Assembly: GCF_900110485.1 (NCBI RefSeq)
Contig: NZ_FODY01000018.1
Span: forward strand, 1-64,000
Origin: Propionispora vibrioides
Lineage (GTDB): Bacteria > Bacillota > Negativicutes > Propionisporales > Propionisporaceae
DNA: 64,000 nt
Reading direction: 5' to 3'
A program made the translations under genes and the position numbers. This document shows positions 5,184 to 50,605 of this stretch, one piece after another. The notes under the pieces are model-generated. The model was not told where the DNA came from, made no database searches, and saw nothing but the letters and a program-made list of their open reading frames with translations. How positions within the stretch are numbered: position 1 is the stretch's first letter; every line of letters begins with the position of its first letter.

Positions 5184-5231
5184 AAGAAAAAACAAAAAAC
5201 CCCTCATCACTACGACTGTAGGGACGAGAGG
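5184..5231 (-). terminator. T-box terminator hairpin
   Basis: Minus strand: CCTCTCGTC pairs with GATGAGGGG, continued inside by CTAC/GTAG, followed by TTTTTTGTTTTTT. This is the regulated terminator of the T-box leader. Confidence 0.85.
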
Positions 5232-5495
5232 TTGTGCTAACTCACGCGGTACCACCCTGATTGGCCATATAACTATAGCCCGCTCACGCTAAGATACGAG
5301 ACAACACTGTCTGATATCCTCTTTCCTGCTATAACGGCGAAAGACTCCGGCAGCGCCTACCCCAGCCTGGCTGGATCGGGCTGCACCTCACAGGTCCATT
5401 CGACATACCGAACAGTGCCAAACTCTCACTACCATTGGCTCGCTGCAACCTTCGCATTATGTGTACTCTTCCTGATCATAGGCGATCAACATATG
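5184..5495 (-). promoter_or_regulatory. T-box leader, tryptophan-specific
   Basis: On the minus strand, upstream of the ECF operon, the canonical T-box sequence AGGGTGGTACCGCG lies at 5245-5258. Stem I carries the AGTA element at 5464-5467 and, on the opposite side of the specifier loop, GAA followed by TGG (5396-5398) and then A. TGG is the tryptophan codon. The leader ends in an intrinsic terminator (5184-5231). Uncharged tRNA-Trp is expected to switch the terminator to an antiterminator and turn on transporter synthesis. The 5' boundary is approximate. Confidence 0.9.
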
Positions 5496-5644
5496 TGTTT
5501 TCATACAGTATACGCTGTTTACAAGAGAAATGTCAATAGCCGTTGCCCTCCCTTAGAGTATGCATTTTTTGTCGAACCAGGCATTGACAACAGGAAAAAC
5601 AACTGATACGATAACCCATAGTGAATAGCCAAAAATTTCATATC

Positions 5645-5806
5645 GTATTGAAACAGGTGTCCGAAAGGACTTAATAGGGAAGTCTGATGTAAAGTCAGCG
5701 CGGTCCCGCCACTGTATCAGGGAGCAAATTCGCAATTATGTCACTGGGGCGACAGCCTTGGGAAGGCGCGAAGGAGCAATGAACTGGAGCCAGGAGAACT
5801 GCCTGT
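5645..5806 (+). promoter_or_regulatory. Cobalamin riboswitch
   Basis: Plus-strand element with the universal core GCGGTCCCGCCACTGTAT (5700-5717) and the B12 box GAGCCAGGAGAACTGCC (5787-5803), preceded by AAACAGGTG and the ATAGGGAA segment. It lies upstream of the TonB-dependent receptor gene and is followed by a strong terminator, so it most likely works by transcription attenuation when adenosyl- or methylcobalamin is abundant. Confidence 0.95.
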
Positions 5807-5868
5807 TTAGCAATCACCGTTTGACCTGCGAGCGATGGGAAGGGGATTTACTTATTGTGAATATGAAC

Positions 5869-11379: not shown

Positions 11380-11414
11380 GGTCATTCTCCTTACACGTTC
11401 TCCTAACCGGCCCA

Positions 11415-11574
11415 AATGTTCTGTCTACTTTAAAAGTATAAAAGAATTCGCAGGAATTTTTTCGCAAGGCAAGGCAACGGAAGCACACATATCGGACATG
11501 TGTAAGTCAACAACAAGGAAGCATTGTGGAAAAGTCCCGTAAAGCAATTATGATTTTAGAGTAGACAGACCATT
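11415..11574 (+). repeat. Palindromic dispersed repeat, copy A
   Basis: 160-bp intergenic element. Outer arms AATG-T-TCTGTCTACTTTAAAA and its complement ending at 11574 pair with one U·G and one mismatch. The core contains GGAATTTTTTCGC, an apical hairpin ACACAT/ATGTGT, AACAAGGAAGCATTGTGG and GGAAAAGTCCCG. Copies B (48407-48570) and C (36246-36411, minus) share the core words but have different, still complementary, arms. Confidence 0.75.
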
Positions 11575-11743
11575 AGAAACCGGGCATTATCATTAGTATA
11601 CCATAAAAGGTCCACCAGGTATCACATGATCCAACCAGCTATTACCAGCTTAATTTTTGAATATTTCTACAATTTCAAGAAGGGTTTACCCATTAGCTGT
11701 GGAAGAAATACAGCGCAAGCAAATTTGCTCAAGGAGGAATAGC

Positions 11744-36241: not shown

Positions 36242-36245
36242 CCTT

Positions 36246-36411
36246 GGGAACCACTGATTAATTCACACTGCACATCCTGGCGGATCTTTTTCCGTCTGGC
36301 TGCGTCAGCAAAACCTTGAAATAGGGACCGTTATTCCTGCGGTTTTACTTCCTTGCCAGCCGAAAAAATCTCTCGCCAGGCCGGCAGGCTCATTTAATCA
36401 GCGGTTCCCTT
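36246..36411 (-). repeat. Palindromic dispersed repeat, copy C
   Basis: 166-bp element between converging genes. End arms read GGGAACCGCTGATTAA and TTAATCAGTGGTTCCC on the minus strand (one G·U). Second stem CCTGGCG/CGCCAGG, a U-rich/A-rich stem (GATTTTTTC with GGAAAAAGATC) and an apical AAAACC/GGTTTT stem. The core words GATTTTTTC and GGAAAAAGA-CCG match copies A and B, which have different arm sequences. Confidence 0.7.
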
Positions 36412-48406: not shown

Positions 48407-48570
48407 CTAGTACCTCATCTGCGTTAAAACGATAGTTATTTTTGCGAGGATTTTTTGCAATGCGAGGCGAAGGAGCCGCACAGATCGAGAATCTGTAAGG
48501 GGACGACAACGAAGCAGTGCGGAAAAAGACCGTAAAAATAGCAGAGTTTTTAATGCAGATGAGGTACTAG
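48407..48570 (+). repeat. Palindromic dispersed repeat, copy B
   Basis: 164-bp element. Perfect 16-bp end arms CTAGTACCTCATCTGC and GCAGATGAGGTACTAG, extended by GTTAAAA/TTTTAAT with one wobble. Core has GAGGATTTTTTGC, apical hairpin ACAGAT-cgaga-ATCTGT, GACAACGAAGCAGTGCGG and GGAAAAAGACCG, aligning with copy A through the core while arms and apical stem are replaced by other complementary sequences. Confidence 0.8.
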
Positions 48571-48757: not shown

Positions 48758-49504
48758 TTACTCAGTAAACCGGGAGCTTACCCCCACCTGCCGGGCCAAC
48801 TCCCTGTCCAGGATCACCGTCACATCCCGGTGCAGCTTCAAGAGCGTGCAGGGTACCTGCGTGGTGACCTCGTCGCTGGTTAGCAGCTTCTGCAATACAG
48901 CGGCCTTCTGGCTGCCGGTGGCCAGCAGTACGATCTTCCCGGCCTGCAGAATATTGCCCACGCCCATGGTGATGGCCGTCTTTGGCACCTCGGCCTCACT
49001 GGCAAAGAACCGGGCGTTCGCCTTAATCGTGGCCTCATCCAGCGTAGCCACATGCACCCCCGCCTGCAACACCTCGCCCGGCTCGTTAAACCCGATATGC
49101 CCGTTCACCCCAACACCCAATAGCTGCACATCCCGTGGCCAGATCTCCAGGATACGGCTAAAGTTGGTGATCTCCGGCTGCACCAGTTGGCTGCCGGAAG
49201 GAATATAGGTATTCAGCGGATTGATATCCACATGGTCGAAGAAATATGTATCCATATAGTGACGGTAACTCTGGGGATGATCAGGCTTCAAGCCGATATA
49301 TTCATCCAGATTGACCGTCCGCACTTCTTTAAAGCTAACTAGTTGCTGCTTATACGCCTCCACCAAATGCGGATACACCCCTTGCGCTGTCCCGCCGGTT
49401 GCCAAGCCCAGACAAGCGTGCGGATTGGACTTAACGACGCTCAACAGTAGGTTAGCCGCTTCCCGGCAGGATGCTGCATACGAATCGGTGATAATAATCT
49501 TCAC
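48758..49504 (-). CDS. nagB: Glucosamine-6-phosphate deaminase-family protein
   Basis: 248 residues with NagB motifs: LGLATGGTAQGVYPHLVEAY, catalytic TVNLDEYIGL, HPQSYRHYM and GVGVNGHIGFNEPG. GTG at 49504 lies ten bases after GGAGGG. Converts glucosamine-6-phosphate to fructose-6-phosphate and ammonia in characterised members. It is the last gene of a glucitol-type PTS operon, which is unusual and suggests the imported polyol carries an amino group. Confidence 0.88.
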   Translation of the reverse strand: MKIIITDSYAASCREAANLLLSVVKSNPHACLGLATGGTAQGVYPHLVEAYKQQLVSFKEVRTVNLDEYIGLKPDHPQSYRHYMDTYFFDHVDINPLNTYIPSGSQLVQPEITNFSRILEIWPRDVQLLGVGVNGHIGFNEPGEVLQAGVHVATLDEATIKANARFFASEAEVPKTAITMGVGNILQAGKIVLLATGSQKAAVLQKLLTSDEVTTQVPCTLLKLHRDVTVILDRELARQVGVSSRFTE

Positions 49505-49525
49505 TGACGGTAGTCCCTCCTTATA

Positions 49526-49550
49526 CCGGGCAGGCAATCCGCCTGCCCGG
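49526..49550 (-). other. Intergenic mRNA hairpin before nagB
   Basis: Perfect 10-bp arms CCGGGCAGGC and GCCTGCCCGG, 5-nt loop, between the dehydrogenase stop and the nagB ribosome site. It lacks a T-run, so it more likely affects mRNA processing or stability than termination. Confidence 0.5.
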
Positions 49551-49585
49551 TGATTTATTGGTTAATGATTTTGTAATTTAATGGC

Positions 49586-50605
49586 CTAACTTATTCGAAA
49601 ATCCCGCTGATATTTCTCTAAGATAGCCTCTACCCACTCCGCTGTAACCTCTTTGGCATTGCAGATCGAATAGCGGATATGCTGCACTCGGACAAACTGG
49701 TTCAGCGTTAAGAGCGCCTGCCGGATATCGTCGATCGTAACCTGCAGTGCCTGGGGCCGGATATCAATCTCCGATCGTTGAATCAGCGACACCGCCCGTT
49801 CGTGCTGGTTATCCTGGAAAGCCGACATAAAGTAGACGCCCAGGCAGACCGCCTGACCGTGCAGGAACTGTTTGCCGGTGATCCGTTCCAGGTTCATAAA
49901 GACGTTATGCTCCGAACCGTCTTCCCACATGGTATGCCGCATCCGGTAGCTGTGTTCGGCGATGCCTTTATAGGCCCGGACGATATAGCGCAGGCCCGGT
50001 TCTTGGTTCTTCACAATCTCACCCATATACTCGGCTAACAGCGCCAACATCTCCTGCGTCTCGTCATAGATTCGCTGGTCAAAAGCATGGGATTTGGTGA
50101 TCAAAGCATTGATCTTCCAGTCGTAACTGGCCGTCAGGCAGCTTAATAAATCGCCGACACCGGACAAATTCAAATGCCTCGGTGCCTGCTCCAGGATATC
50201 AAAATCAATCAAAATCTCCTTCGGCAGGATATCGCCTTCGTATTTAACCACATGGTCATAGCGGACGGCTGTCTTGTAGCAGAGAAAGGCGTTCACTGAC
50301 AAGGCGGTGGGCATTTGATAGAGCGGTACTTTATGAGCCGTAGCCCACAGCTTAGCCGCATCGGCAGCCATGCCGCCGCCCAGGCCCAATACCTGGTTAA
50401 AGCCTGATAAGGTTTTGACTTCTTCGTCCATGACCTTTTTCTCCATGGTAGTAACGAAATAGAGCTGAATCGCGTCTTGCCTAACCTGTCCTTTCAGCTT
50501 CTCCCAGATAACCGGATCGGTGACAATCAGCCAGTTTTCTTTACTGTCAGTTAAGGTTGTTAGCAGATTCCGGCCATAGGTGACCGGATATTTCTCCTGG
50601 TTCAT
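49586..50605 (-). CDS. Glycerol-1-phosphate-dehydrogenase-like enzyme (iron-containing/AraM family)
   Basis: 339 residues: cofactor loop QVLGLGGGMAADAAKLWA, MPTALSVNAFL, and likely metal ligands Asp in LSGVGDLLSC and His in GSEHNVF and FLHGQAVC. Characterised relatives oxidise sn-glycerol-1-phosphate with NAD(P) and Zn or Ni. Here it lies between gutM and nagB in a PTS operon that lacks the usual sorbitol-6-phosphate dehydrogenase (SrlD), so it probably oxidises the phosphorylated polyol. Substrate is inference. Confidence 0.82.
   Translation of the reverse strand: MNQEKYPVTYGRNLLTTLTDSKENWLIVTDPVIWEKLKGQVRQDAIQLYFVTTMEKKVMDEEVKTLSGFNQVLGLGGGMAADAAKLWATAHKVPLYQMPTALSVNAFLCYKTAVRYDHVVKYEGDILPKEILIDFDILEQAPRHLNLSGVGDLLSCLTASYDWKINALITKSHAFDQRIYDETQEMLALLAEYMGEIVKNQEPGLRYIVRAYKGIAEHSYRMRHTMWEDGSEHNVFMNLERITGKQFLHGQAVCLGVYFMSAFQDNQHERAVSLIQRSEIDIRPQALQVTIDDIRQALLTLNQFVRVQHIRYSICNAKEVTAEWVEAILEKYQRDFRIS

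Follow-up and report, generated by a model that had tools for sequence, protein, structure and literature searches.

The 64,000-nucleotide window analysed here, from the genome of Propionispora vibrioides (G000), contains three intergenic elements of about 160 bp, A, B and C, and the question they raise is whether such repeats are a structured RNA or a hairpin-dependent mobile element. The original prediction, made from the sequence, named both options and took the pairing of otherwise unrelated end arms as the mark of a selected secondary structure.

All three elements are present where they were predicted. Element A covers 11414..11575 of the forward strand, including both TA-derived ends (now AA and TA), and has arms of the GGTCTGTCTACTTTGAAAG type. 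Its conserved core, positions 1-97 of covariance model R1, lies at 11447..11543 (+; 80.2 bits, E 3.6e-16) and includes the 5' internal-loop strand AAGGCAACGGA (family consensus AAGGCGGAGGA) at 11471..11481 (+), the apical hairpin ACACAT/ATGTGT at 11485..11503 (+) and the 3' internal-loop strand (family consensus GACGACAACGAA) at 11509..11520 (+). Element C, with arms of the GTACCTCATCTGCGTTAAAACG type, runs from TA to TA at 48408..48569 (+) in a CTAG target; its core at 48441..48536 (+) scores 96.4 bits (E 4.4e-20), with the 5' loop strand GAGGCGAAGGA at 48464..48474 (+), the apical hairpin ACAGAT/ATCTGT at 48480..48496 (+) and the 3' loop strand GACGACAACGAA at 48502..48513 (+). Element B occupies 36244..36411 with its core strand on the reverse strand, including its TT flanks derived from TA, and has ends of the form CTA[GGGAACC...GGTTCCC]TAG. 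Its core at 36278..36379 (-) reaches 34.3 bits (E 4e-5), and within the element (-) the inner loops have diverged and the apical stem is AAAACC/GGTTTT. The apical hairpin had thus been read correctly for A, while those of B and C had been exchanged. The long end arms are, as described before, unrelated among the three elements and each pairs with its own partner. Folded alone, A, B and C gave z-scores of -4.48, -9.82 and -10.14 against dinucleotide shuffles, and none of 200 shuffles folded as well as the respective element.

Other features were also seen in the window. A cobalamin riboswitch at 5638-5820 (+, 106.5 bits) lies near a T-box leader on the opposite strand at 5217-5488 (-, 98.3 bits). 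In addition, a 1.2-kb stretch at 48777-50000 recurs at 88-89% identity on contigs C9 and C27. The proteins it encodes are like glucosamine-6-phosphate isomerase and iron-ADH, so that these are paralogous genes and not an insertion sequence (IS).

The three elements belong to a large family. BLAST with the core of C gave 41 copies in G000, and R1, built from 32 cores, gave at least 149 matches at E≤1. At least 148 copies bear the core, to which a subfamily of the B type is added, with more than 30 full-length copies among the matches listed. The B-type ends obey the same rule as the rest of the family; the inner loops have diverged, and membership was assigned from the 34 bits together with the common architecture and ends. 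A 184-bp relative, F, has inner words in common with B. A copy measures about 163 bp from TA to TA, which is also the peak of the length distribution in the 66 copies whose TA ends pair. The core is built of a stem TTTTTTCGNNNNGC / GCNNNNCGGAAAAA, an internal loop AAGGCGGAGGA / GACGACAACGAA whose two conserved strands are purine-rich, and further inward a GGC/GCC stem, a 6-bp apical stem and the loop CGRAC. Some 31-33 more bases flank the core on each side; they differ among subfamilies and are still complementary, and clustering gave about 10 arm types in G000 alone, besides singletons. Nested and chimeric copies exist. Like MITEs in general, the copies are short, non-coding and multicopy, with terminal inverted repeats and a target-site duplication that empty sites reveal.

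Covariation in the central hairpin was strong. For the 32 core copies, 92.5% of the paired cells were complementary against 81.7% after shuffling, the covariation score was 0.371 against 0.186 (≤0.138 in slid controls), and two-sided changes were found in 75 cells against 29.9. With a second model, R2, 18 of the 20 pairs showed two-sided change and the covariation was 0.578 against 0.201. The training set of R2 was collected with a pattern that fixed part of both internal loops, so the conservation of the loops is in part a product of ascertainment; the pattern put no constraint on the arms, stem 1 or the apical stem. The result was repeated on 46 matches that had no part in model building, with a covariation of 0.797 against 0.227 (slid controls ≤0.186) and 288 two-sided cells against 105, in an alignment that was fitted to the model and therefore leans towards the structure. 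In 41 of 43 new matches the arms, which are outside the model, gave better pairing than any of the random controls. The selected structure that had been proposed is therefore borne out, the covariance model having found the family genome-wide with covariation above both shuffled and slid controls, and the case of unrelated terminators, which had been named as the refuting one, is excluded.

The kind of mismatch in the arms points to the form in which the structure is selected. If only double-stranded DNA mattered, G·T and A·C mismatches should be equally frequent on a given strand. Counted with alignment scoring that treated the two alike, G·T outnumbered A·C on the core strand by 463 to 139 in G000 (92 copies G·T-richer, 5 A·C-richer), by 54 to 13 in other Bacillota (12 copies against 0) and by 118 to 23 in Actinomycetota (24 copies against 2), raw counts that overstate independence since close copies carry common ancestral wobbles. 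This one-strand excess in both phyla indicates selection on that folded single strand, RNA or ssDNA, between which the excess alone does not discriminate. The ratio is lower after insertion (90 to 55 in orthologous copies) and among deviations from the subfamily consensus (203 to 121, or 103 to 79 when counted by sites), from which it seems that the pressure acts more strongly on the lineage that amplifies than on the resident copies. The excess fits a folded single strand that is active in amplification.

Arms that diverge and remain self-complementary would also be produced by quasipalindrome correction through template switching, with no selection for the fold, and 14 double changes between orthologs, one of them an A-T to C-G transversion pair, are of the kind this process makes. 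Correction is, however, symmetric with respect to the strands, while G·T is 3 to 5 times as frequent as A·C on one strand in both phyla, so it is not the whole story. Pairing is moreover lost over time in resident orthologs, and both the conserved internal loops and the fixed length are left unexplained, which makes template switching a very unlikely account of the arms.

Mobility was read from empty sites in relatives. Element C is absent from one congener (G002) and element B from another (G001). Four clean empty sites all fit a duplication of TA: CAGCTA[GTGT...ACAC]TAGTACC vs CAACTAGTCCC at L007_1494, where the copy had inserted into another element, at its TA end; GGCCATA[...]TAGG vs GGCCATAGG at L049; TTTCCCTA[GGG...CCC]TGGTAAAT vs TTTCCCTAGTAGAAT for F; and ACCCTA[...]TAGTCC vs ACCCTGGCCC for C, the last two with a later substitution on one side. 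The sites of C, L049 and L007_1494 were read against G002, and that of B against G001. Among the 66 copies with paired TA ends, 42 have a C just before the left TA and 36 a G just after the right one. The target is thus TA, preferably within CTAG, and TA is duplicated on insertion. A duplication of four bases, CTAG, was considered and rejected, because the outer base on one side varies independently of that on the other (e.g., TTAG...CTAA), which favours the two-base duplication.

Against the extracted stretches of G002, 54 of 114 copies could be placed: 29 were shared, 15 were scored as empty, some of these scores being distorted by neighbouring elements, and 10 gave other outcomes. Orthologous copies in the congener had an identity of 0.72-0.99 and often weaker folds, with only 14 double Watson-Crick changes in about 1,720 pairs; the ortholog of A in G002 is at the same place, decayed and with deletions. 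The family is still young, as the empty sites between congeners indicate. Copies are mostly intergenic, and after the 3' ends of genes the core was found 51 times in sense and 43 times in antisense orientation.

These data bear on the possibility that the repeats are a structured RNA kept by the host (a riboregulator, attenuator or sRNA) and multicopy by chance. Strong covariation, conserved unpaired purines and one-strand G·U pairing are what such an RNA would show. Because orthologs decay and orientation to genes is random, the copies are instead regarded as a mobile element and not a host riboregulator; the same random orientation rules out terminator and 3'-UTR roles. The empty sites and a copy number from 0 to about 150 within one class argue in the same direction. 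The Rfam check that had been suggested gave no family at gathering level on A, B or C, and none at the element positions of other copies with E-value thresholds. A host RNA is accordingly extremely unlikely. Of the two options first offered, the mobile one is sustained by the empty sites with TA duplication, patchy copy numbers and nested insertions, while that of a pure structured-RNA gene is not.

The enzyme that would move the elements was sought with two transposase families genome-wide, PF13358 and PF01797. The IS630 origin suggested by the CTAG/TA target was rejected, since DDE_3 (PF13358) is absent from most of the carriers tested, with 0 matches in G000, G001, G002, G020, G021 and G037, which hold 7 to 149 copies each. 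In addition, no autonomous or longer element with matching ends was found in 0.9 Mb, and no IS flanked by element ends in the four Streptomyces plasmid regions, out of six inspected, that carried annotation. These results have to be weighed against the view that the copies are ordinary MITEs, each arm subfamily representing the terminal inverted repeats of a separate IS (IS630/Tc1-mariner, or a TA-duplicating one of the IS5/IS427-like kind) and the ends being read as double-stranded DNA by a DDE transposase. TA duplication and a preference for CTAG are typical of IS630 and IS427-type IS. The outermost bases TAG...CTA are partly conserved here, and it is possible that a classical transposase needs just a very short terminal motif; most small bacterial repeats are thought to be of this kind (PMC2229807). 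Nevertheless, about 10 arm types around one core within a single genome are the reverse of MITEs, which have common ends and a variable middle. One-strand wobble bias and compensatory arms would not be expected either, and together with the lack of DDE_3 in those six carriers and of autonomous copies in the 0.9 Mb they make ordinary MITEs an unlikely alternative. The simplest reading would be a machinery that requires core, length and pairing and accepts about 10 different terminal sequences in one genome.

Movement by a Y1 transposase of the RAYT type, as in REPINs, was also evaluated; CTAG would then be the cleavage tetranucleotide and the TA duplication merely apparent. The elements resemble REP/REPIN sequences in being intergenic palindromes and strand-specific, and strand-specific hairpin recognition by TnpA-REP is a precedent for the reading of a fold. 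G000 has two RAYT-like long Y1 transposases (L306 2426-3319 and L307 747-1490). One copy of the element lies about 1 kb from the gene at L306 2426-3319; otherwise the two are unlinked. However, most relatives have RAYT-like genes whether or not they carry the element, and 18 RAYT neighbourhoods yielded one strong copy and one weak match. The elements also differ from REP/REPIN in having TA duplication and no one-sided signal of the GTAG type, and variation in their outermost bases is about the same on the left and on the right, as a duplicated TA predicts. Y1/RAYT was therefore rejected as the mover, and a REPIN-like origin is quite improbable. Integron attC sites are sequence-variable and structure-conserved, and are read as a folded single strand. 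The likeness to them is one of principle, an analogy, since the present elements show no gene-cassette arrangement and duplicate TA on insertion.

Among known repeats, ERIC, RUP and Correia are small TA-flanked mobile repeats, of which RUP was in 2007 the only one with a known IS of similar ends (PMC2229807). Similarity is greatest in plan with ERIC, a small imperfect palindrome of fixed length, intergenic, with TA ends, TA duplication, variable copy number and long stem-loop transcripts (PMC2229807, PMC2759123), for which the 2007 review reports no IS with matching ends (PMC2229807). Both the TA duplication and the full-length palindrome are found in the present family. ERIC differs, however, in its length of 127 bp and its other core, and identity by sequence is ruled out, as R2 with filters off gave 1.8 bits at the ERIC core in two ERIC loci. 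A sequence consensus over the whole length identifies ERIC, whereas here only the core is common and the arms differ among subfamilies. The E. coli ERIC copies L421 and L422 have in common with the family the TA duplication and short words at like places, AAGGCG in the 5' loop and, on the 3' side, GACGCAGC as in the B type, the model giving no homology support. From these words, ERIC may be a distant branch. RUP of Streptococcus pneumoniae, likewise small and palindromic, has TA ends and duplicates its target, its ends resemble a known IS630 and IS630-Spn1 is its proposed mover (PMC2229807); here, in contrast, DDE_3 is missing from most carriers tested and the ends differ among subfamilies. 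Correia/NEMIS elements of Neisseria (107-155 bp) share TA ends and hairpin transcripts with the family (PMC2229807) but have conserved 24-bp terminal repeats, and no covarying core that spans phyla has been described for them. A literature search with words and with the core sequence, from which subscription papers were mostly left out, gave no description of the family, which is large and apparently undescribed so far.

The distribution is wide and patchy. Two congeners have 98 and 7 cores, and in some other families of the class the counts are 49, 29, 16, 15 and below, with many at zero. Scanning with a degenerate pattern located the core in Sporomusa, Pelosinus, Lucifera and MAGs of Peptococcaceae and Clostridiales, as well as in Actinocatenispora and Kribbella. 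With R2 at E≤1e-5, the sample of 398 Bacillota genomes contained 16 with matches and that of 396 Actinomycetota genomes 12, many of them with several copies. Matches were present in 45 plasmid records, all from Streptomyces, phage records gave none, and among 2.9 million viral contigs there was one match, near a contig edge. Outside G000 (Bacillota, Actinomycetota and Streptomyces plasmids) the same core is joined to other arms, and arm types recur across distant genera, L371 being similar to type 5 of G000 and L374 to the CTAGTGTAGTG type. It seems that core and fold, not terminal sequence, define the repeats as one superfamily of palindromic mobile elements.

Some Streptomyces plasmids show particular arrangements. 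An apparent second palindrome lies inside the apical hairpin of a core-bearing element at L417 3480-3760. Near position 3500 of L414 and L416 there are hairpins of 75-80 bp whose CTAGGG ends are similar but in which no core was detected; they may be derivatives by internal deletion. At L415 3501-3526 and L419 3501-3527, the TAG of the element end appears to provide the stop codon of the upstream gene.

Taken together, the copies are best explained, with a probability of about 0.7, as a non-autonomous mobile element that forms one superfamily in Bacillota and Actinomycetota and is amplified through its folded core strand. Each copy is an imperfect palindrome of fixed length with a covarying central hairpin and two conserved loop strands, its arms are subfamily-specific and self-complementary, G·T wobbles exceed A·C mismatches on the core strand in both phyla, and copies deteriorate once they are resident. 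The form that moves, or that the machinery recognises, would be the self-folded core strand, as RNA or ssDNA. Recognition would depend on the internal-loop core and the length of the hairpin, not on a fixed terminal sequence, so that the arms could drift freely while pairing lasts and amplification would be limited to copies that fold well. Cutting and joining at TA would be carried out by a trans-acting enzyme.

A bolder and rather doubtful version is a cross-phylum mobile class in which the element's own RNA either moves or acts as the guide. This transcript would form the long hairpin, a putative protein would bind the conserved internal loop, and insertion at TA would be directed by the RNA, either through reverse transcription as in SINEs or through an RNA that marks its own ends. 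If true, this would explain the freedom of the terminal sequences, given that the ends pair with G·U allowed, as well as why the search gave no transposase with matching ends.

ERIC and other small palindromic TA repeats were described decades ago, and most have been assigned no mobilising enzyme. The present family is large and occurs in two phyla, including Streptomyces, and its covariation and one-strand wobble show that a single-strand fold is selected. The conserved loops AAGGCGGAGGA and GACGACAACGAA offer a handle for finding the protein that moves such elements, and the covariance model can be used to annotate many unexplained intergenic hairpins.
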